Shown here piece by piece: positions 53,043 through 62,387 of a DNA stretch of 64,000 nt. This DNA is from an uncultured Paracoccaceae bacterium (GTDB lineage: Bacteria; Pseudomonadota; Alphaproteobacteria; Rhodobacterales; Rhodobacteraceae). A program made the position numbers and the translations under genes. Position 1 is the first letter of the stretch. Every line of letters starts with the position of its first letter. The notes under the pieces were generated by a model. It searched no databases. It was not told where the DNA came from and saw nothing but the letters and a program-made list of their open reading frames with translations. The stretch spans positions 186,001-250,000 of the forward strand of contig CANMPL010000002.1 of assembly GCA_947499715.1 (NCBI GenBank), written 5' to 3'.

Positions 53043-53927
53043 CTATCCCTGGTTTTCCCCGGCAAGAAATCGCACGAACAACAGGGTCAAATTCTCGCGC
53101 CTTGAATTGTCTGGCCAGATCGCGTGAAGGCCCAGCGGCTTCAACGTCCAATCCGGCAAGACATGTACCAATTCGCCCCGCTCAAATCCGCGACACGCCA
53201 GCGTTTCCGGGATCGCGGTCAAACCCAACCCGCGCGTTGCAAATTCGTAGAGTGAATCGGCGGCATCCACGGTTACATTTGAACGGCCGGTGACGGACAT
53301 GACCTCTCCGTCTGGCGCAAGAAGCTCTGTCTGGTCTGCACGCATCGAAAAACGTACCCAATCAAATTGCTCCAGATCGCGCGGGTGCAAAGGTTTGGGC
53401 TTGCCTTCCAGATACTTTGGACTTGCCACAAGTAACCTTTTGACCTCGCCTAGGTTACGGGTCTGTAGTTCGCTGTTCTCTAGCCAACCTGCGCGAATGG
53501 CGACATCATAGCCATCCTTGATCAGGTCAATTGGCACATCCGAGAACTGCAATTTCAATGTGACGTTTGGGTGCGCAGTCGCGAAGTCGGCGATTTTGTC
53601 CATAATGTTCGTTTGCGTTGCGAATGCGGGCGCGGTTATGCGCAATTCGCCGGCAGGCTCGTCCGAGATGAGGTTGATTGCATCAAGCCCACTTTCTGCG
53701 GCCACCAGCATTTGTTGTGCTTTTTCATACAGGATCCGTCCTTCACCTGTCAGTGAAAGACGCCGAGTGGAGCGGTATAGCAAGGTGACACCAAGCTGCT
53801 TTTCCAGGTTAGAGACCGATTGACTGATCCGTGAGGGTGCAAGTCCAAGATGCCGCGACGCCGCGCGAAAGGTGCCTTGATCGACCACCGTCGCAAATAT
53901 CGCAATCCCGCGAAGCTTCTCAATCAT
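53043..53927 (-). CDS. LysR-family transcriptional regulator (CrgA/DsdC-like subgroup)
   Basis: A 294-residue regulator with N-terminal winged helix (IAIFATVVDQGTFRAASRHL, LAPSRISQSVSNLEKQLGVT) and a LysR effector domain (GELRITAPAF, YDVAIRAGWLENSEL). The sequence belongs to the large group of LysR proteins that often control divergent enzyme genes. The upstream region holds TATTGAC at 53957-53963 and GTCAATA at 53986-53992, a spaced inverted repeat that could be its site. It may regulate the outer-membrane protein downstream or the divergent Rieske operon. Confidence 0.88.
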   Translation of the reverse strand: MIEKLRGIAIFATVVDQGTFRAASRHLGLAPSRISQSVSNLEKQLGVTLLYRSTRRLSLTGEGRILYEKAQQMLVAAESGLDAINLISDEPAGELRITAPAFATQTNIMDKIADFATAHPNVTLKLQFSDVPIDLIKDGYDVAIRAGWLENSELQTRNLGEVKRLLVASPKYLEGKPKPLHPRDLEQFDWVRFSMRADQTELLAPDGEVMSVTGRSNVTVDAADSLYEFATRGLGLTAIPETLACRGFERGELVHVLPDWTLKPLGLHAIWPDNSRRENLTLLFVRFLAGENQG

Positions 53928-54284
53928 TGTTCACCCCAGCGGAATAATCTGATCTGTATTGACCTACTTATTGATACTGCCCACTGTCAATATACTGCCC
54001 GCGCATGCACCTGCACTGCTTTGAAAACAATCACAAAAGGGGCTGCGTGTGCTGGCCTTCCTATCGACGCGTGACCTAACCATGATGCAAAGCACATCAT
54101 GGATGAGGCACGCGGCGGTCTTTCGGCGAATGTGCCTCTCGGCCAAAAAAGGCCTATTCGGGGACGTGTCAAATGGCTCAACCCACGGAACGCCGACAAC
54201 GGTAAGATCAATGCTATGAATAATTTCTGAAACGTAAGACGCTTCGCAAATGTAAGTGCTACAAATCAAGTGGGAGAGATCGTC
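53928..54284. promoter_or_regulatory. Divergent intergenic region before the Rieske operon
   Basis: About 360 bases between the LysR gene and the tandem SnoaL gene. It holds a seven-base inverted repeat (TATTGAC/GTCAATA, 53957-53992) and a direct repeat ATACTGCCC at 53975 and 53992. No convincing gene is seen, and no sigma-70 promoter stands out before 54285. Confidence 0.45.
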
Positions 54285-55052
54285 ATGGGACAAGGCTTGG
54301 AAAACGTCCGCCGCATTTACCTAGAAGGCATTGCGGGCGGCAACGCGCGCGAGGCTGTGCTGAAATACACTGGTCACCGTTACACCCAGCATTCAACAGG
54401 TGTGGGCGACGGAGCCGAGGGGTTCCTTAGCTTTTTTGAACCCTTTGTTGAACGCAATCCAAAGCGCGAGATTGAAATCGTGCGGATCTTTGAAGATGGG
54501 CCTTGGGTCTTTTGTAATGCCTATCAGTCGCTCAATGACGGTGCCGCAGAATGGGTCACAATGGATATGTTCTACACCGACAAAGACGGGCTGATCCTTG
54601 AACATTGGGACACGATCGCACCCTACATTGCCGACACCAAATCGGGTGAGGACCCAGTTCGCGGCACGGCAGATGTCGATATGTCTGCAGATGCCGACGC
54701 CAGCAAGGGCGTGGTTTTGGAATATGTAAAACAGGTGCTGCAGGAAAAAGACGTCAGCAAGATTGATCAATTCGTGGCAACGGATCATGTCGAACGCGCC
54801 CCTACAATCGGGGCAGGTCAGGCCGGTCTTGCTGCGTGGCTGAATTCCGACGACTCGGGCAGCTACGATATGCTCTTTAACCTTTTCGGGCAGGGCGACT
54901 TTGTCGTGACCTATGGTAAGCGCCATATCGCCGGGAAGGATGTTGCCAGTTTTGATCTTTACCGCGTTGCGGATGGCAAGATCGTCGAACACTGGATGAA
55001 TACCGAAGAAATTGGCCCCCGCGACACTTGGGGCAATTCCGGCAAATTCTAA
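54285..55052 (+). CDS. Tandem SnoaL/NTF2-like domain protein
   Basis: A 255-residue soluble protein made of two similar NTF2-like halves. The first (residues 1-125) has YTQHSTGVGDGAEGFLSFF and EWVTMDMFYTDKDGLILEHW; the second (140-255) has FVATDHVERAPTIGAGQAGL and FDLYRVADGKIVEHWMNTEE. The paired HxxG and EHWD/EHWM elements are typical of SnoaL-like cyclases, isomerases and unknown enzymes. The ATG at 54285 follows GGGAGAG; a GTG at 54270 is less likely. It is 71 bases before, and co-oriented with, the two Rieske fusion genes, so it probably takes part in the same pathway. Confidence 0.75.
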   Translation: MGQGLENVRRIYLEGIAGGNAREAVLKYTGHRYTQHSTGVGDGAEGFLSFFEPFVERNPKREIEIVRIFEDGPWVFCNAYQSLNDGAAEWVTMDMFYTDKDGLILEHWDTIAPYIADTKSGEDPVRGTADVDMSADADASKGVVLEYVKQVLQEKDVSKIDQFVATDHVERAPTIGAGQAGLAAWLNSDDSGSYDMLFNLFGQGDFVVTYGKRHIAGKDVASFDLYRVADGKIVEHWMNTEEIGPRDTWGNSGKF

Positions 55053-55123
55053 TTCGCCTAAGATAAAAACAATTGCCCCGGCCAGTTCGGGGCCAAGAAC
55101 CTTAGACAGACAGGGACGCAACG

Positions 55124-56731
55124 ATGAACAAAGTATCGGTAGCCACACTCAAAAACCTTCCCGACCGGGACCCGCAATATGCGCTTGTCGCCGAAGTGGA
55201 CCTTGTTGTGGTCCGCTTTGATGAAGAGGTTTCTGTCTTTTACGGCCGCTGTTTGCACCGTGGTGCGTTGATGTCCGACGGCTTCGTGCGCGGCCGCGAT
55301 CTGATCTGTGGCGTGCACAATTGGGACTATCGCCTCGACACCGGCGTTTCGGCCTATGCCAATCAAGAAAAGCTTCCGAAATTCACCTGCTTTATCGAAG
55401 ATGGCGAGGTCATGGTGGACGAGGATGAGATCAAGGCATGGGGCGACAAGAACCCGCAGCCGTTCAACCGCGATCAATATCTGGGACTTTATGCTGACAC
55501 CTCCCACGGCACCGCCGAAGAGCCCACCAACGCAATCATCCAGCAATATGCCCGCAACGGCCTTAGCAAAGTGGGGCACCACGGCACAATGGATTCGATG
55601 GGTGTGCCCCGCGACCAACTGCCGACATGGGATGATCTGCAAATCCTGACCGCGCAATTGCACAAGCCACCGCTCTTGGACGAAGACGCCGTCGGAACCG
55701 ACGTTGTCATCGGGCCGAACGCCAAAAAGCCGCTCAAACTCGACATCCCGCTTTTTGTCTCGGATATGTCTTACGGCGCATTGTCCGAACCGGCCAAAGT
55801 ATCGCTCGCGCGCGGGGCAGAACTTGCCGGCACCGGGATTTGCTCTGGCGAAGGCGGAATGCTTGCAGAAGAACAAGAAGCCAATTCGCGCTACTTCTAT
55901 GAACTGGCATCGGCACGCTTTGGCTTTAGCTGGGACAAGGTCCTCAAAACCCAAGCCTTCCATTTCAAGGGCGGGCAGGGGGCTAAGACAGGTACCGGTG
56001 GCCACCTGCCTGGCAACAAGAACCATGGCAAGATCTCAGAAGTGCGCGGCATCCCCGAAGGCGAAGACGCAATCTCGCCACCACGGTTCCCCGATTGGAC
56101 AGAGACCTCTAAGATCAAGGAATTTGCCGATGAAGTGCGCGAACGCACGGGCGGCATTCCCATTGGATACAAGCTGTCGGCGCAACATATCGAAAAAGAC
56201 ATTGATGCCGCACTAGAGGTCGGCGTTGATTACATCATCCTTGACGGTCGCGGCGGCGGAACCGGTGCCGCACCGACGATCTTCCGCGACAATATCTCTG
56301 TCCCGACGATCCCTGCACTGGCGCGGGCGCGCAAACACCTCAACGCGACACGGCCCGATGTGACGCTGGTGATCACAGGGGGGCTTCGCCAGCCCGCCGA
56401 CTTTGTCAAAGCGATGGCGCTGGGCGCAGATGCAATTGCGGTTTCAAACGCGGCGATGCAGGCCATCGGCTGTATCGCGATGCGGGCCTGTAACACCGAC
56501 AATTGCCCCGTGGGAATCGCCTCTCAGAAACCCCATCTGGCCAGCCGGATCATCGTTGAAAAATCAGCGCAACAGTTGGCAAATTTCTTTGATGCCTCGT
56601 CGCATCTGATGCAGGTGATGGCCCGCGCCTGTGGTCACGATCATGTCTCAAAATTCAACATCGACGACCTGACCACGTGGAAAAAGCAGATGACGGAACT
56701 CACCGGTGTCGCATACGGGGGGCTGTCATGA
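55124..56731 (+). CDS. Rieske domain fused to FMN-binding glutamate synthase domain
   Basis: A 535-residue protein. Residues 1-100 form a Rieske [2Fe-2S] domain with Cys43-x-His45 and Cys62-x2-His65. Residues from about 130 onward form the FMN barrel of glutamate synthase (FVSDMSYGALSEPAKVSLAR, GICSGEGGM, FHFKGGQGAKTGTGG, LDGRGGGTGAAP). The [3Fe-4S] cysteines are Cys450, Cys456 and Cys461, the spacing (Cx5Cx4C) of true glutamate synthases. The glutaminase domain is absent, so the Rieske domain occupies the N-terminal position. Its stop overlaps the next gene by four bases. Substrate and electron donor are unknown. Confidence 0.85.
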   Translation: MNKVSVATLKNLPDRDPQYALVAEVDLVVVRFDEEVSVFYGRCLHRGALMSDGFVRGRDLICGVHNWDYRLDTGVSAYANQEKLPKFTCFIEDGEVMVDEDEIKAWGDKNPQPFNRDQYLGLYADTSHGTAEEPTNAIIQQYARNGLSKVGHHGTMDSMGVPRDQLPTWDDLQILTAQLHKPPLLDEDAVGTDVVIGPNAKKPLKLDIPLFVSDMSYGALSEPAKVSLARGAELAGTGICSGEGGMLAEEQEANSRYFYELASARFGFSWDKVLKTQAFHFKGGQGAKTGTGGHLPGNKNHGKISEVRGIPEGEDAISPPRFPDWTETSKIKEFADEVRERTGGIPIGYKLSAQHIEKDIDAALEVGVDYIILDGRGGGTGAAPTIFRDNISVPTIPALARARKHLNATRPDVTLVITGGLRQPADFVKAMALGADAIAVSNAAMQAIGCIAMRACNTDNCPVGIASQKPHLASRIIVEKSAQQLANFFDASSHLMQVMARACGHDHVSKFNIDDLTTWKKQMTELTGVAYGGLS

Positions 56732-58695
56732 GCGATCTTGATTGGATCTCCGTCGGCCCGGCCGACCTGCCCGATGGCCGCGTCAAAACGGTCTCTGCCA
56801 AGACCCATTTCCTGTGCCTGTCACACTTTGACGGCAAATGGGCCGCGATGGACAACCACTGCCCGCATCAAGGCGGCCCTTTAGGGGAAGGTTCCATTGA
56901 GCGCGGGAAGGACGACAAATGCTGGATCCGCTGCCCTTGGCATGGTTGGGATTTCGACCCGATCACCGGGGCCCCTCCCGGTGGGCACGAGGATTCCGGG
57001 CAAAAAACCTACCCGGTCGAAATCCGGGACGGAGAGGTCTTTATCGGCCTGCAACCCGATCCGCCGCATGAACGCACCGTTACCGACGCGATGGCCGAAA
57101 CCATGGTCAATTGGGGCATCAAACGGGTGTTTGGGATGGTCGGGCATTCCAACCTTGGCCTTGCCGATGCCATTCGTCGCCGCACCATTGATGGAGAGCT
57201 TAGCTATACCGGGATCCGTCACGAAGGAGCGGCGGCCTTTGCGGCCTCTGCCTATGGCAAACTGACGGGTAAGCCCGCTGCTTGTTTGACCATCGCAGGG
57301 CCGGGTGCCACCAACCTGATGACGGGAATGTGGGACGCCAAGGTTGACCGCGCCCCGATACTCGCGCTGACCGGACAGGTGCAAACGCAGGTCTTTGGCC
57401 CCGGTGCGTTTCAGGACATTGATCTGACTTCCGCATTTCAGGCCGTCTCTCGGTTCTCGCAGACGGTCTTGTCCACGTCCAACCATACCGAACTGGTGTC
57501 TTTGGCGGTGAAAACAGCGCTGCTTGAACGCGACGTGTCCCACCTGATCTTCCCCGATGATATCCAGACCCAACCCAGCGATGCCCCCGCTGGCAAGCCC
57601 GATGGGCGCATGGGTGGCCCGGTTGTGCGGCCCACCGATGCGGATGTCACAGCGGCGCTTGATATGATGAACACGGCAAAACGCCCGCTGATCATCATCG
57701 GCCACGGCGCGTGGGAGGCCCGTGAAGAGATCACCGCGTTGGCAGAAACTTTGGGCGCGCCGGTTGTGACCACCTTCAAAGGCAAAGGCCTGATCCCCGA
57801 CAATCACCCCAACGCGGGCGGTGTTCTGGGCCGGTCCGGCACACCGATTGCCAGCTGGTTCATGAACGAAAGCGATCTTCAGATCGTGCTTGGCGCATCT
57901 TTCTCAAACCACACCGGCATCAACCGGGGCAAGCCAACCATTCAGGTGGATTTTGAGCGGATGCAGCTTGGAAAATTCCATCCTGTCACCCTGCCGATCT
58001 GGGGTGAAATCGGCGCGTTTTGTGACCTGATCAAACCGCAGGTCAAACGCGCAAAAGACGCCGATGACCAAATCACCGAACTCGCTGGCCGGTGGGACAT
58101 CTGGCGCGCTGAAAAGGCGCGTCGCTTGACCGAAGAAGGCACCAATGGCGCCCATTCAGCGGCGATCTTTGATGCGCTGTCGCGGGTCGCTCCGGCGGAC
58201 GCGCTGATCTCGGTCGATGTGGGCAACAACACCTATTCCTTTGGCCGATATTTTGAGACCAAGGGCCAACGGGTGATGATGTCGGGCTATCTGGGCTCTA
58301 TCGGCTTTGGCCTTCCCGGTGGCATGGGGGCTTGGGCGGCCACGCAGGATTTTGAGGAATTCCGCGGCCGCAAAGTGATCTCTATCTCTGGTGATGGCGG
58401 CTTTGGTCAATACGCGATGGAAATGACCACAGCTGTTAAATACGGCATGGATATTACTCATATCCTGCTGCATAACGACCAGCTTGGCAAAATCACGAAA
58501 GAGCAGCGATCAGGCGAATGGCCCGTGTGGGAAACCAATCTGGTGAACCCATCCTTTGCCGCCTTCGCCCGGCTTTGCGGTGCGCACGGCGTTAAAGTCA
58601 CAAAAGGTGCCGATGTTGAGGCCGCCATTGCAGAGGCCCTCGCGATCGAGGGCCCCGCGCTTGTCGAAATCATGGCTGACGCAGACCTGATCTAG
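56728..58695 (+). CDS. Rieske domain fused to ThDP-dependent decarboxylase/oxidase
   Basis: A 655-residue protein. Residues 1-110 are a Rieske [2Fe-2S] ferredoxin-like domain with Cys45-x-His47 and Cys69-x2-His72. Residues 113-655 are a full ThDP enzyme of the acetolactate synthase/pyruvate oxidase family: catalytic Glu166 in GIRHEGAAAFAA, central domain (KRPLIIIGHGAWEAREEI), and GDG at 555-557 with Asn583 for Mg-ThDP. A ThDP enzyme with its own Rieske centre could pass electrons from an oxidised 2-oxoacid or aldehyde straight to the cluster. It is coupled to the previous gene by ATGA. The substrate is unknown. Confidence 0.85.
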   Translation: MSDLDWISVGPADLPDGRVKTVSAKTHFLCLSHFDGKWAAMDNHCPHQGGPLGEGSIERGKDDKCWIRCPWHGWDFDPITGAPPGGHEDSGQKTYPVEIRDGEVFIGLQPDPPHERTVTDAMAETMVNWGIKRVFGMVGHSNLGLADAIRRRTIDGELSYTGIRHEGAAAFAASAYGKLTGKPAACLTIAGPGATNLMTGMWDAKVDRAPILALTGQVQTQVFGPGAFQDIDLTSAFQAVSRFSQTVLSTSNHTELVSLAVKTALLERDVSHLIFPDDIQTQPSDAPAGKPDGRMGGPVVRPTDADVTAALDMMNTAKRPLIIIGHGAWEAREEITALAETLGAPVVTTFKGKGLIPDNHPNAGGVLGRSGTPIASWFMNESDLQIVLGASFSNHTGINRGKPTIQVDFERMQLGKFHPVTLPIWGEIGAFCDLIKPQVKRAKDADDQITELAGRWDIWRAEKARRLTEEGTNGAHSAAIFDALSRVAPADALISVDVGNNTYSFGRYFETKGQRVMMSGYLGSIGFGLPGGMGAWAATQDFEEFRGRKVISISGDGGFGQYAMEMTTAVKYGMDITHILLHNDQLGKITKEQRSGEWPVWETNLVNPSFAAFARLCGAHGVKVTKGADVEAAIAEALAIEGPALVEIMADADLI

Positions 58696-58710: not shown

Positions 58711-58745
58711 GCGCGGTGGGGTTAGCCCCCCTCCGCGCGTTTCAT
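58711..58745 (+). terminator. Probable terminator of the Rieske operon
   Basis: GCGCGG/CCGCGC and GGGG/CCCC pair around a TTAG loop (58711-58738), followed by GTTTCATTTG. It overlaps the stop codon of the convergent flavoprotein gene. Confidence 0.6.
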
Positions 58746-59537
58746 TTGTTGATGCTGATCCTCGATCAGCCCGATTTTCCAATAGCCAGAAATGTAGGTA
58801 TCCGCGCGGGGCAACTGCTTTTCCTGATGCAGAAACGCCCGCAGGCTTTTGATCACACCGGATTCGCCCGCGATGCAGGTCTGCACGCGCCCCTCGGGCC
58901 AGTCCAGCGCGCGAATGAAATCTTCCTGCGCGGTGGATGGCGTCGCCGGGTCGGGGTGCACAAGCCAATGCATCTCAATCCCGGCAGGCGCGTCAATCTC
59001 TTGCTTGTCCTCGGCGGCGGTCACTTCAAACACGGCCACACCTTTGGCGTCACGCGGCATCGCTTCGAGTGCTGCGGCAGCGACCGGAATGGCCGAAGGA
59101 TCTGCCGCGACCAAATACCAATCCGCTTCAAAACTCACCAACTTGGGCGAACTGGGGCCCATAAACCCCAGAAAATCGCCGGGCTTTGCGTGGCTTGCCC
59201 AACGCGATGCCGGGCCGTTGTCACCATGGGCTACAAAATCAATGCTCAGCTCTTGGGTCGCGGCATCAAAATGGCGCACCGTGTAGGTTCGGCGCACCGG
59301 CGGCGTGCCGCCGGAAAACCGCGCGACAAAGGCGTCGCGGGTCTCTGCGGGATCAGGGATCATGATCTTGCAGTTGCCACCGTCATGGCCAGCTGGAAAG
59401 CCATCCAGCTCTGGCCCAGCGAAAACAACGCGGATCATGTTTGGGGTCAGATACCACGCCTCTTTCACCGTCAGGATCCGCGGCATCCGCCCCGTAGCCC
59501 GACTGGCCGCCTGCTTCAGTTTTGACATTAGCGCCAT
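58722..59537 (-). CDS. Siderophore-interacting-protein-type FAD reductase
   Basis: A 271-residue flavoprotein of the SIP/ViuB family. The FAD-binding motif is RRTYTVRHFD (RxYT), followed by IDFVAHGDNGPASRWA and the pyridine-nucleotide domain (WYLVAADPSAIPVAAAALEA); YISGYWKIG near the C-terminus is a family signature. It uses NAD(P)H to reduce ferric siderophores, or might serve as a reductase for other centres. It is convergent with the Rieske operon and co-oriented with pcaQ, 120 bases apart. No siderophore genes are nearby, so a role as electron supplier to the Rieske enzymes is worth considering, but this is only inference. Confidence 0.88.
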   Translation of the reverse strand: MALMSKLKQAASRATGRMPRILTVKEAWYLTPNMIRVVFAGPELDGFPAGHDGGNCKIMIPDPAETRDAFVARFSGGTPPVRRTYTVRHFDAATQELSIDFVAHGDNGPASRWASHAKPGDFLGFMGPSSPKLVSFEADWYLVAADPSAIPVAAAALEAMPRDAKGVAVFEVTAAEDKQEIDAPAGIEMHWLVHPDPATPSTAQEDFIRALDWPEGRVQTCIAGESGVIKSLRAFLHQEKQLPRADTYISGYWKIGLIEDQHQQMKRAEGG

Positions 59538-59657: not shown

Positions 59658-60566
59658 CTATTGACGCTGTGCCTTGCGCAAACACGCAACAAAAAGATGC
59701 CGTTCAACACTGACCGGTGCGGCCTGCAATTGGCTGATGCCGACAGGCCCCGACAACAACGGCGACGTCAGATCAACCGCCAATAACCGCCCCGCCGCCA
59801 ATTCGTCGGCCACAACACCTCGAGAGATAAACCAAAGTGCATCAGACAGTTGCACGATGCGCCGCCCAATCGGCAGGGCTACCGTTTCCACCGCGCCGCG
59901 CATTTCGGCCAACCCAAGGCTGGCCAGATATCGCCCGACCGTGCTGGCAATCACGGCCCCCTTAGGCGGCAGGATCAACGGATAATCAGCTAAGGCGGCT
60001 TCCTTGTTGCGCGCCTTCTGTATCGGATGTCCGGGCCTGCAAACCAGCACGACGGTCTCAAGATACAATTGCTCGAACAGCAGCCCCGCCTTGTCGTCGT
60101 TTTCTGGCATTCGCCCGACCACCAAATCTAGCTGCCCGTCGCGCAATTGGTTGAACAATAGCCAATTTGGCCCAGTCATAATGTTCAGTTGCGCATGGGG
60201 GGCCTCGGCAGCAAAGGAAAGCGCGGCTTGCGGCACGAGTTCCGTCGCCGCCGTCGGCAGCGCGCCAATCGAAAGCCGAGTGCTCTTGGCGCCTTCGGAT
60301 GCCACCCTGTCTTTGCCGCGCAACAATTCTGTCATCGCTGCCGATGCATGGGCCTGAAACATCCGCCCCGCCGCATTCAACCGGATCCCGCGGCCCACAC
60401 GGTCAAACAAGGGCGTCCCACACAGGGCTTCAAGTTCCTTCAGGCTCCGCGAGACGGCGGGTTGCGAGATATGCAACGCATCAGAGGCCTGTGAGACACT
60501 TTCAAACCGCGCAATCTCTAGAAAGGTGCGGACATGTCGCAGGCGAAGGTGATCATCCCAATTCAT
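59658..60566 (-). CDS. pcaQ: LysR-type regulator of protocatechuate genes
   Basis: A 302-residue LysR protein close to PcaQ of rhizobia and agrobacteria. The DNA-binding domain is LRLRHVRTFLEIARFESVSQ followed by LHISQPAVSRSLKELEALCG. It activates the pca operon in response to carboxymuconolactone-type intermediates. It is divergent from pcaC, with a PcaQ-like site between them. The ATG at 60566 gives the family N-terminus; the 14 upstream codons are not used. Confidence 0.9.
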   Translation of the reverse strand: MNWDDHLRLRHVRTFLEIARFESVSQASDALHISQPAVSRSLKELEALCGTPLFDRVGRGIRLNAAGRMFQAHASAAMTELLRGKDRVASEGAKSTRLSIGALPTAATELVPQAALSFAAEAPHAQLNIMTGPNWLLFNQLRDGQLDLVVGRMPENDDKAGLLFEQLYLETVVLVCRPGHPIQKARNKEAALADYPLILPPKGAVIASTVGRYLASLGLAEMRGAVETVALPIGRRIVQLSDALWFISRGVVADELAAGRLLAVDLTSPLLSGPVGISQLQAAPVSVERHLFVACLRKAQRQ

Positions 60567-60623
60567 ACCGGATAGGTTATATAATTGGCAAAAATGATCA
60601 ATATTCAAAACGATTTTCGACTG

Positions 60624-60639
60624 ATAACCTGAGGGTATT
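60624..60639 (+). promoter_or_regulatory. PcaQ-like binding site
   Basis: ATAACC-TGAG-GGTATT lies 21 bases before pcaC. The known PcaQ box is ATAACC-N4-GGTTAA; the left arm is exact and the right arm agrees at three positions. Confidence 0.65.
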
Positions 60640-60659
60640 GATCAATAAGGGACAAGCCG

Positions 60660-61040
60660 ATGGCATCACGACACGATACAGGAATGGCGACGCGCCGGTC
60701 GGTTCTGGGCGATGCGCATGTCGACCGGGCAGAGGCGGCAAAGTCGGACTTCGACCTGCCTTTTCAAACCCTGATCACCGAAGGTGCATGGGGCACTGTC
60801 TGGTCGGACGACACCATCAGCCGCCGCGAACGCTCAATGCTCACGCTCGCCCTGTTGGCTGCGACCGGAAACTTCGAAGAGATCCCGATGCACATCCGCG
60901 CGACGGCCAATACCGGCGCCACGGCCGATGACGTGATGCAGGCGTTTTTGCACGTTGCGATTTATGCGGGCGTGCCAAAGGCCAATCACGCAATCAAACT
61001 TGCCAAACAAACCTTTTCCGAGATGGAGAAAAGCACATGA
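60660..61040 (+). CDS. pcaC: 4-Carboxymuconolactone decarboxylase
   Basis: A 126-residue AhpD-fold enzyme that decarboxylates 4-carboxymuconolactone to 3-oxoadipate enol-lactone. Seen features are [40 protein letters not shown], and [20 protein letters not shown] with the catalytic histidine. It is the first gene of the pca operon and its stop overlaps pcaH by four bases. An AAGGGACA site precedes the ATG. Confidence 0.95.
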
Positions 61041-61765
61041 GACCGCCAGCCGAATACTATCAACGTGACCGGAACATGCACCCACCGGCATTGACCCCCG
61101 GCTATAAAACCTCTGTTGCCCGAAGCCCGCGCTATTCGCTGATCTCTCTGGATCAGACCCCGTCCGAAATCACTGGCCCGCGTTTTGGCCACAACGATCT
61201 GGATGAAGGCGACAACGACCTGATCTACAACTACGCCAAGCCCGGCGAAAGCGCGATTGGCGAGCGCATCATCCTGCATGGCCGGGTTCTGGATGAAAAC
61301 GCGCGGCCCGTTGCCAATACGCTGGTAGAGGCTTGGCAGGCCAACGCGGGCGGTCGCTACCGGCACAAAAAGGATACCTATCTCGCGCCGATTGATCCCA
61401 ATTTCGGTGGCTGTGGCCGAACCCTGACCGACGAGAATGGCTATTACTTTTTCCGCACCGTCAAACCCGGTGTCTATCCTTGGCGCAATCTGGTGAACAA
61501 CTGGCGTCCCGCGCATATTCACCTGTCGCTCTTTGGGTCGTCGTTTTCGCAGCGCCTGATCACGCAGTGCTACTTTGAAGGTGATCCGCTGATCCCGCGC
61601 TGTCCGATTGTGCAGTCGATCCCGGATCAAAGCGCGATTGAACGCCTGACCGCAAAGCTTGATATGAACGCGACAATCCCGCTTGATACGGTCGCTTGGC
61701 GGCTTGATCTGATCCTGCGCGGCCGCCGCTCAACCTTGTTTGAAAACCGTCTGGAGGGGAACTGA
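61037..61765 (+). CDS. pcaH: Protocatechuate 3,4-dioxygenase, beta subunit
   Basis: The iron-bearing subunit of the intradiol dioxygenase that opens protocatechuate. The four ferric ligands are at Tyr108, Tyr147, His160 and His162 ([23 protein letters not shown]), with the same spacing as Tyr408, Tyr447, His460 and His462 of the Pseudomonas enzyme. Length is 242 residues. It is coupled to pcaC and followed one base later by pcaG. Confidence 0.97.
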
Positions 61766-61766
61766 T

Positions 61767-62387
61767 ATGCCTTTGGAACTTGATTATCTTGTAGAATCCG
61801 CCTCTCAGACCGCCGGTCCCTATGTCCACATCGGGCTCGCGCCGGGTGCCGCCGGCTTTGATATCTATGACCGCGAACTTGGCTTCGACATTACCGGTCC
61901 CAATGCCAAAGGCGAACGCATTCGGGTCGAGGGGCTTGTGATTGATGGCACCGGTAGCCCCGTTAAGGACGTGCTGCTCGAGATCTGGCAAGCCAATGCC
62001 GATGGCATCTATGCCCACCCCGAAAGCGCGGGCGAAGTAGAGGAAGGTTTCCGCGGTTGGGGTCGGGTCATCACCGATTTCGAAACTGGCCTTTGGGGGT
62101 TTGATACCGTCAAACCCGGCCCAACACCGGGCCGCAATGGACAAACCCAAGCGCCTCACCTCAACATCTGGATCGTGGCGCGCGGCATCAATATCGGCCT
62201 GAATACCCGCATGTATTTCGCTGACGAGGAGGCCGCGAATGCGGCCGATCCTGTGTATAACATGATCGAATGGGAAAACCGCAGGGCCACTCTTTTGGCG
62301 CAGCGCGACGACAGCGGTGACATACCGGTTTATCGGTTTGAAATCCGGTTGCAGGGCGAAGGCGAAACCGTGTTTTTCGATATCTAG
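61767..62387 (+). CDS. pcaG: Protocatechuate 3,4-dioxygenase, alpha subunit
   Basis: A 206-residue non-iron subunit paired with PcaH. It has the intradiol fold (ASQTAGPYVHIGLAP, VLLEIWQANADGIYAHPES, GWGRVITDFETGLWGFDTVK, APHLNIWIVARGINIGLNTR). The histidine and tyrosine ligands of PcaH are not all kept, as expected for an alpha subunit. The ATG at 61767 is chosen over an upstream in-frame codon at 61740 that overlaps pcaH. Confidence 0.96.
   Translation: MPLELDYLVESASQTAGPYVHIGLAPGAAGFDIYDRELGFDITGPNAKGERIRVEGLVIDGTGSPVKDVLLEIWQANADGIYAHPESAGEVEEGFRGWGRVITDFETGLWGFDTVKPGPTPGRNGQTQAPHLNIWIVARGINIGLNTRMYFADEEAANAADPVYNMIEWENRRATLLAQRDDSGDIPVYRFEIRLQGEGETVFFDI

Follow-up and report, generated by a model that had tools for sequence, protein, structure and literature searches.

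Why would two neighbouring bacterial genes each encode a Rieske domain fused to a different catalytic domain, and do the two proteins belong together? This question is raised by a locus in the window, i.e., the whole stretch of 64,000 nucleotides analysed here from an uncultured Paracoccaceae bacterium, in which a glutamate synthase-like fusion (Rieske-GltS) and a ThDP-enzyme fusion (Rieske-ThDP) are encoded side by side (Table 1). Rieske domains are known from bc complexes, oxygenases and NirD-type reductases. A sequence-only reading of the locus had described three open reading frames and an ATGA overlap of the two fusion genes, and coordinates and sequence bear this out. For the SnoaL gene a GTG at position 54270 is a possible alternative start. 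Genes of the pca type are located at 59.6-62.4 kb of the window.

Table 1. Features of the locus, with positions in the window; residue numbers refer to the encoded proteins.
Feature	Position	Strand	Length	Details
LysR-type regulator, divergent, candidate regulator	53043..53927	-		Pfam
Tandem SnoaL-like protein	54285..55052	+	255 aa	ATG start, stop 55052; Pfam SnoaL_2 (3.8e-13), two stretches
Rieske-GltS fusion	55124..56731	+	535 aa	Pfam Rieske 4-86 and Glu_synthase 190-504
Rieske [2Fe-2S] domain of Rieske-GltS	55133..55381	+		Pfam 4-86; ligands C43, H45, C62, H65
FMN/[3Fe-4S] glutamate-synthase domain of Rieske-GltS	55691..56635	+		Pfam 190-504; Cys triad C450, C456, C461; without glutaminase
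ATGA stop/start overlap, Rieske-GltS/Rieske-ThDP	56728..56731	+		Sequence
Rieske-ThDP fusion	56728..58695	+	655 aa	ATG start; Pfam Rieske 11-86 and TPP_enzyme_N, _M, _C
Rieske domain of Rieske-ThDP	56758..56985	+		Pfam 11-86; ligands C45, H47, C69, H72
Three ThDP-enzyme domains of Rieske-ThDP	57076..58671	+		Pfam; residues 117-648

The Pfam domains agree with the proposal that a Rieske domain is fused to a glutaminase-free GltS in one protein and to a full ThDP enzyme in the other. The Rieske domains of the two fusions score 43.4 and 51.2 bits against a gathering score of 20.3, no glutaminase family was detected in Rieske-GltS by the Pfam scan, and the ThDP-site residues of Rieske-ThDP are Glu166 and Asp556/Asn583. 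Rieske-GltS reaches 109.9 bits for the GltB-type glutamate synthase family, below the cut-off of 1047, and the best NCBIfam score of Rieske-ThDP (NF006377, 380.7 bits) lies below the equivalog cut-off of 742. All four Rieske ligands are intact in both fusions, and they are kept in 109/109 matches of Rieske-ThDP, at least six of these loci being one contig entered twice, and in 78/84 matches of Rieske-GltS. Of the six exceptions, four belong to the CDGSH type, one is a fragment of a split gene and one has a late start call. The Cys triad of GltS is present in 81/84 matches, while the alignment does not reach the triad in the remaining three. As the ligands are conserved among relatives, the fusion architecture is not due to chance.

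Relatives of Rieske-ThDP are encoded in at least 580 DNA stretches; the family is large and its architecture is not local to the window. Among 197 other genomes of the bacterial family Rieske-ThDP is found in 12, of which 11 also encode Rieske-GltS (22 genomes), corresponding to p=2e-11 in Fisher's test, a type of value that overstates independence as the genomes are related. In the class set (n=288) Rieske-ThDP is present in 12 genomes, Rieske-GltS in 7 and both in 6. The gene order is conserved as well: both genes lie on the same strand, GltS followed by ThDP, at most 150 bp apart in 31/66 loci and up to 3.5 kb apart in 22/66. The two fusions are thus a conserved pair, occurring together in many alphaproteobacteria and on some haloarchaeal plasmids. 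In 7/48 well-flanked loci none of the partners is nearby.

The pair has further company, and the membrane Rieske protein, the antiporter and the CDGSH variants described below are parts that were missed by the earlier two-protein reading. A third Rieske fusion joins a Rieske domain to a membrane protein that resembles ferric reductases and cytochrome b. It is encoded in 19/197 other family genomes but in 11/12 of those with Rieske-ThDP, and in the class genomes in 6/6 with both fusions versus 0/6 with Rieske-ThDP alone. Of 18 other genomes with both fusions it is present in 17, the family genome G126 having both fusions without it, and it tracks the fusions even across different contigs (G320, G423). 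The Rieske domains of Rieske-ThDP and of the membrane protein cluster together (99/88). Immediately upstream of GltS, 22/26 loci holding both fusions encode a cation/proton antiporter, and an antiporter is found in 28/86 loci overall. In the genome of the window the membrane Rieske protein was not found, nor was a relative of the partner-locus antiporter at E 1e-20.

The [2Fe-2S] module itself is exchanged in some relatives. In four loci (L056, L057, L064, L077), all with Rieske-ThDP nearby, a tandem CDGSH (CDGSH2) takes the place of the GltS Rieske domain. On Rieske-ThDP proteins, CDGSH modules were detected in 5/6 class genomes without Rieske-GltS and in 0/7 with it, and it is these CDGSH-bearing forms that have diverged more (51-62%). 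Across genomes, CDGSH-GltS is unsupported as a partner of Rieske-ThDP in general (2/12, p=0.28), despite the four stand-in loci. The CDGSH type was counted in 17 family genomes, classed by a GltS match starting at residue 124-129; the ten of these that were read (L021-L030) all have two CDGSH motifs and none a Rieske motif. Rieske and CDGSH domains seem to be interchangeable connectors on central metabolic enzymes, and what they do there can be tested directly with the exchanges found in nature, i.e., CDGSH in place of Rieske on GltS and additional CDGSH modules on ThDP proteins when the partner fusions are missing.

That the pair recurs with the membrane Rieske protein and with an ion exchanger suggests a redox system that has not been described. 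We see about even chances that the two fusions make up the soluble core of such a module, a conserved one, with the Rieske domains as plug-in electron connectors. In analogy to pyruvate oxidases, Rieske-ThDP would most likely oxidise a 2-oxoacid, pyruvate or a relative, and its Rieske domain would take the electrons, replacing the route to quinone by the C-terminal membrane tail of PoxB. Rieske-GltS would most likely receive electrons via its own Rieske domain, from which they would pass to the [3Fe-4S] cluster and FMN, and it may then reduce a 2-oxoacid or reductively aminate one with free ammonia. In fuller versions, the membrane Rieske protein would tie the module to the membrane and the antiporter gene may add ion exchange; Rieske or CDGSH domains would act as connectors between 2-oxoacid oxidase, glutaminase-free GltS and membrane. 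The physiological role is probably in redox or ion stress. More tentatively, and with considerable doubt, we extend this to a new kind of redox system shared by bacteria and haloarchaea. In it, electrons would be traded between an oxidase of 2-oxoacids, a GltS that uses ammonia and, in the bacterial version, a cytochrome b of the membrane, each via its own Rieske domain; the system would be tied to cation/proton exchange, with CDGSH able to replace Rieske. If true, the oxidation of carbon, the formation of glutamate and the balance of ions would be wired together.

The Rieske and CDGSH domains could instead respond to redox state, pH or oxidants and in stress gate the enzymes on or off, with no catalytic electrons passing through them. 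His-ligated clusters have pH-dependent potentials, and the surroundings of the genes are in line with a stress function: an ECF sigma factor adjoins the cluster in 8/86 loci and a zf-HC2 protein in 6/86, both being counts of BLAST clusters of which one member each was checked by Pfam, the antiporter accompanies about a third of the loci, and neighbours on haloarchaeal plasmids are annotated as mercury reductase, DsrE, TauE, pirin and peroxiredoxin. We nevertheless judge gating to be rather unlikely, as the Rieske domain of the membrane protein groups with that of Rieske-ThDP and this protein tracks the pair, swappable electron-carrier modules fit transfer better, and GltS and quinone-linked pyruvate oxidases both require an external electron partner.

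Shared regulation of independent enzymes, e.g., a carboligase of the acetohydroxyacid-synthase kind that is co-transcribed with a stand-alone GltS but exchanges no electrons with it, appears to us unlikely. It would be consistent with the true IlvD adjoining Rieske-ThDP in L137 and L138, with fusion genes that lie far apart or on separate contigs in G206, G320, G340 and G423, and with the 11/23 family genomes (window genome counted) that contain Rieske-GltS without Rieske-ThDP. However, co-occurrence persists even where the fusion genes are unlinked, and both enzymes carry a Rieske domain, whereas carboligases need none. A link to branched-chain amino acid synthesis via IlvD is seen in two loci of one family only.

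The SnoaL protein had been suggested as a further partner of the fusions. By local BLAST its gene is found in 3/86 loci, and relatives with 75-77% identity occur in three other genomes, i.e., 4/198 with at least 75% counting the window genome, by which an obligate partnership is rejected. What stands of the suggestion is a loose link with Rieske-GltS, present in 2/3 of these other genomes (p=0.03), while Rieske-ThDP is present in 1/3 (p=0.17); SnoaL accompanies the pair occasionally. A siderophore-interacting protein was rejected as partner, as it recurs in 1/86 loci, the window's own. That Rieske-ThDP directly reduces Rieske-GltS in a closed two-protein system with SnoaL processing the substrate would suit the minimal, adjacent two-gene form of the window, a 75% SnoaL gene and a GltS gene lying about 2 kb apart in G001, the loose GltS link and a LysR relative (37-38%, local BLAST) that recurs with SnoaL beside the CDGSH-GltS/Rieske-ThDP pairs of L057 and L077, but given the rarity of SnoaL, its weak tie to Rieske-ThDP and the nearly constant membrane Rieske protein it is improbable.

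Returning to the redox module, its parts can be compared with known systems. Protein family searches and the open-access literature, covered by titles and the starts of abstracts with subscription literature outside the scope, revealed no paper on Rieske-GltS or Rieske-ThDP and no known enzyme with an unrelated role. Within this scope, none of the three findings that the sequence-only reading had named as refuting has come up. The best PDB matches of Rieske-GltS, by sequence and by model, are glutamate synthases, although the predicted structure is weak (pLDDT 72.3). With the glutamate synthase large chain and Fd-GltS (7MFM, 1OFD) it shares the FMN barrel and the C-x5-C-x4-C [3Fe-4S] motif, but it lacks the glutaminase domain and has a fused Rieske domain. 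E243, K288 and R308 are found at the places of E903, K972 and R992 of Fd-GltS, which we take to be functional residues there. His294 occupies the place of the 2-oxoglutarate ligand Gln978, so that the substrate may differ. The Rieske ferredoxins of dioxygenases and NirD share cluster motif and domain with both fusions; they are separate small proteins, whereas here the domain is built into the enzymes.

Tandem CDGSH-GltS corresponds to the type 5 CISD (PMC3174974), and CDGSH was described with Glu_synthase, Fer4_19 and Rieske_2 (PMC5859297). The type 5 GltS domain is 66-70% identical to Rieske-GltS over about residues 124-535 and lies near Rieske-ThDP in the four stand-in loci; it differs in its CDGSH module and, across genomes, is not associated with Rieske-ThDP. 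By Pfam, the protein encoded in the window has a Rieske domain in front of GltS and no tandem CDGSH motifs.

The predicted structure of Rieske-ThDP (pLDDT 88.5, pTM 0.84) is closest to pyruvate:quinone oxidoreductase 9ev6 (TMq 0.72) and PoxB 3ey9 (TMq 0.73), in support of the earlier view that the ThDP part is oxidase-like. ThDP N/M/C fold, catalytic Glu166 and Mg ligands are shared with the pyruvate oxidases PoxB (3EY9/3EYA), C. glutamicum PQO (9EV6) and L. plantarum POX (1POW). These differ by having no N-terminal Rieske domain, and the C-terminal membrane tail of PoxB is absent in Rieske-ThDP, the match ending at PoxB 527 of 572 and the query at 655. E592-Q593 sits at the place of POX E483-Q484, and Lys588 is found where pyruvate oxidases have their electron-relay Phe (F465/F479). 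G368, F392 and D408, invariant in 53 relatives, align with FAD contacts of PoxB and would form a putative FAD site.

The three adjacent genes, the ATGA overlap between the Rieske-GltS gene (Rieske domain fused to a glutamate synthase) and the Rieske-ThDP gene (Rieske domain fused to a ThDP enzyme) and both fusion architectures, as described by the sequence-only reading, are borne out by the window sequence and by Pfam, and a Pfam scan of Rieske-GltS found no glutaminase domain. In the family search, both fusion proteins stay below the NCBIfam cut-offs. The cofactor ligands had been regarded as intact, and the expected residues are indeed present in the window proteins and conserved in relatives. 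In Rieske-ThDP, the four Rieske ligands and the catalytic Glu166 are kept in 109/109 matches, at least six of these loci being contigs obtained by two routes (e.g., L051/L095 and L046/L069), and therefore the independent counts are slightly lower. In Rieske-GltS, all four Rieske ligands are found in 78/84 matches, and the six exceptions are four proteins with CDGSH, another [2Fe-2S] module, a fragment of a split gene and a protein whose start was called late.

Coordinates of the window genes and of features at related loci (L-numbers)
Feature	Location	Remarks
SnoaL	window 54285-55052	
Rieske-GltS	window 55124-56731	Pfam Rieske + Glu_synthase
Rieske-ThDP	window 56728-58695	Pfam Rieske + three TPP_enzyme domains
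Siderophore-interacting FAD protein	window 58722-59537 (-)	convergent with Rieske-ThDP
PcaQ regulator and PcaC, then two ring-cleavage-dioxygenase-like ORFs	window 59658-62387	PcaQ and PcaC above NCBIfam cut-off; ORFs by eye
CDGSH-Fer4_19-CDGSH-Rieske-ThDP	L136:8093-10705, L137:7557-10187, L138:8491-11148, L139:7941-10715	871-925 aa; one ThDP enzyme bearing three kinds of iron-sulfur module
IlvD (true dihydroxy-acid dehydratase)	L137:5676-7514, L138:11189-13060	immediately 5' of extended Rieske-ThDP gene
c11	L051:6488-7249 and relatives	~250 aa; directly 3' of FRE-Rieske in 37/39 loci
Flavin-reductase/flavodoxin-like gene	L136:7321-8013, L035:9193-9909	close to cation:proton antiporter and Rieske-ThDP
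Rieske-GltS gene split in two pieces	L055:9311-11338	genome G184; perhaps decayed

The two fusions are associated across genomes, which answers the check on their co-occurrence. In the window's family, represented by 198 genomes with one for each genus, 13 encode Rieske-ThDP, 23 Rieske-GltS (counting matches that cover its Rieske domain, of which four are truncated or fragmented) and 12 both; leaving out the window genome, the counts are 12/197, 22/197 and 11 (p=2e-11, kinship of genomes ignored). In the class set of 289 genomes, 13 encode Rieske-ThDP, eight the Rieske-type GltS and seven both, and without the window genome 12/288, 7/288 and six (p=8e-9, again ignoring kinship). Within the 66 loci holding both genes, including at least four duplicates and four with CDGSH-type GltS, GltS precedes ThDP on the same strand at up to 150 bp in 31, at up to 3.5 kb in 22 and farther away in two, while seven are divergent and four reversed.

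Neighboring genes were compared in 86 loci, consisting of the window, five plasmid loci and 80 loci from a scan of one genome each for 84,980 species, in which at least 580 stretches encode a Rieske-ThDP relative and the best 80 (L056-L135), judging by record titles mainly from alphaproteobacteria and some from gammaproteobacteria, were kept. In many loci, three genes absent from the sequence-only reading are located between GltS and ThDP: c10, a small protein of no clear family, FRE-Rieske, whose ferric-reductase-like transmembrane domain is followed by a Rieske domain at the C-terminus, and c11, of which the tested member matches no Pfam or NCBIfam family and of which one sequence shows by eye a Cys/His-rich stretch. 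Counted over the 86 loci, with 80 being the best of at least 580, GltS is present in 56 (with an extra piece at a contig end, L129), FRE-Rieske in 39, a relative of the L051 Na_H_Exchanger antiporter in 28, and the siderophore-interacting protein in one, the window itself; SnoaL, for which the sequence-only reading proposed to check whether it travels with the pair, is present in three. Among these best-80 scan loci, 48 have 8 kb or more of flanking sequence on each side; of these, 37 contain GltS, 30 FRE-Rieske, 19 the antiporter and seven none of the three. The antiporter lies immediately 5' of GltS in 22/26 loci holding both, an adjacency also seen where Rieske-ThDP is encoded elsewhere (L143, L145, L147). 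The flavin-reductase-like gene with an antiporter at L136 and L035 resembles the arrangement of Kef pairs. An ECF sigma factor adjoins the cluster in eight loci and a zf-HC2 protein in six.

FRE-Rieske occurs in only 19/198 family genomes, yet in 11/12 non-window genomes with Rieske-ThDP (exception G126); in the 12 non-window class genomes with Rieske-ThDP it is found in 6/6 with Rieske-GltS and 0/6 without. In G206, G320, G340 and G423, the GltS, ThDP and FRE-Rieske genes are widely separated or on separate contigs. The window genome holds a minimal version of the gene set, as a genome search found neither FRE-Rieske nor, at E 1e-20, a relative of the L051-type antiporter.

The iron-sulfur module itself varies. 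GltS near Rieske-ThDP carries tandem CDGSH instead of Rieske in L056, L057, L064 (6.6 kb from Rieske-ThDP) and L077; across genomes, CDGSH-type GltS shows no association with Rieske-ThDP (2/12, p=0.28, type read in 10/17 genomes). Such CDGSH-GltS proteins are already known as type 5 CISD (PMC3174974). The ThDP protein itself often bears CDGSH modules when its partners are absent. Of five distant Rieske-ThDP proteins (L136-L140), four have CDGSH-Fer4_19-CDGSH ahead of Rieske and the fifth tandem CDGSH. In class genomes, CDGSH is present on Rieske-ThDP in 5/6 without Rieske-GltS (the sixth being G200) versus 0/7 with it (p=0.005, G448 judged by frame length), and since CDGSH-bearing proteins are the more divergent ones, a lineage effect could account for part of this difference. 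G194, the sole family genome with Rieske-ThDP and without Rieske-GltS, has no CDGSH extension.

Both fusions are also encoded on three haloarchaeal plasmid records (~58% identity to the window), and Rieske-ThDP on one Haloferax (58%) and one Mycobacteroides plasmid (53%), where no Rieske-GltS was found beside it within the plasmid stretch examined. In the haloarchaeal plasmid islands (L031-L034), the annotations of genes around the fusions include mercury reductase, DsrE, rhodanese, TauE, DUF302, pirin and MFS transporter.

In the simplest account, which is inference in all that goes beyond architecture, gene order and co-occurrence, Rieske and CDGSH domains would act as electron connectors. 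The ThDP enzyme would oxidize a 2-oxoacid and pass electrons to its own Rieske domain, and the Rieske-bearing partners, i.e., GltS and the membrane protein, would accept or donate electrons. Alternatively, the Rieske and CDGSH domains may be sensor gates on the enzymes, or the two fusions may merely be co-regulated. The antiporter and the stress-type genes neighboring the clusters suggest a link to ion or redox stress. Judged by titles and abstract openings, none of the papers listed by searches of an open-access library deals with Rieske-GltS or Rieske-ThDP.

In a tree of 72 Rieske domains, those of ThDP and FRE proteins group (99/88) and those of GltS are separate, the domains being short, the outgroups few and long branches flagged by the program. 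Sequence searches against solved structures relate Rieske-GltS to glutamate synthases and Rieske-ThDP to pyruvate oxidases and related ThDP enzymes. The Rieske-GltS model is weak (pLDDT 72.3), with glutamate synthases still the top structural match. The alignment of this protein with GltS covers the synthase half and places E243, K288 and R308 at E903, K972 and R992 and His294 at Gln978, which are functional residues of GltS. The Rieske-ThDP model (pLDDT 88.5, pTM 0.84) is closest to the pyruvate:quinone oxidoreductase 9ev6 and to the pyruvate oxidase PoxB (3ey9), with acetohydroxyacid synthases just behind. Residues aligned with FAD positions of PoxB are invariant in relatives, and Lys588 is located where pyruvate oxidases have the relay Phe. 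The alignment with PoxB stops at residue 527 of 572, and Rieske-ThDP therefore lacks the PoxB-type membrane tail.
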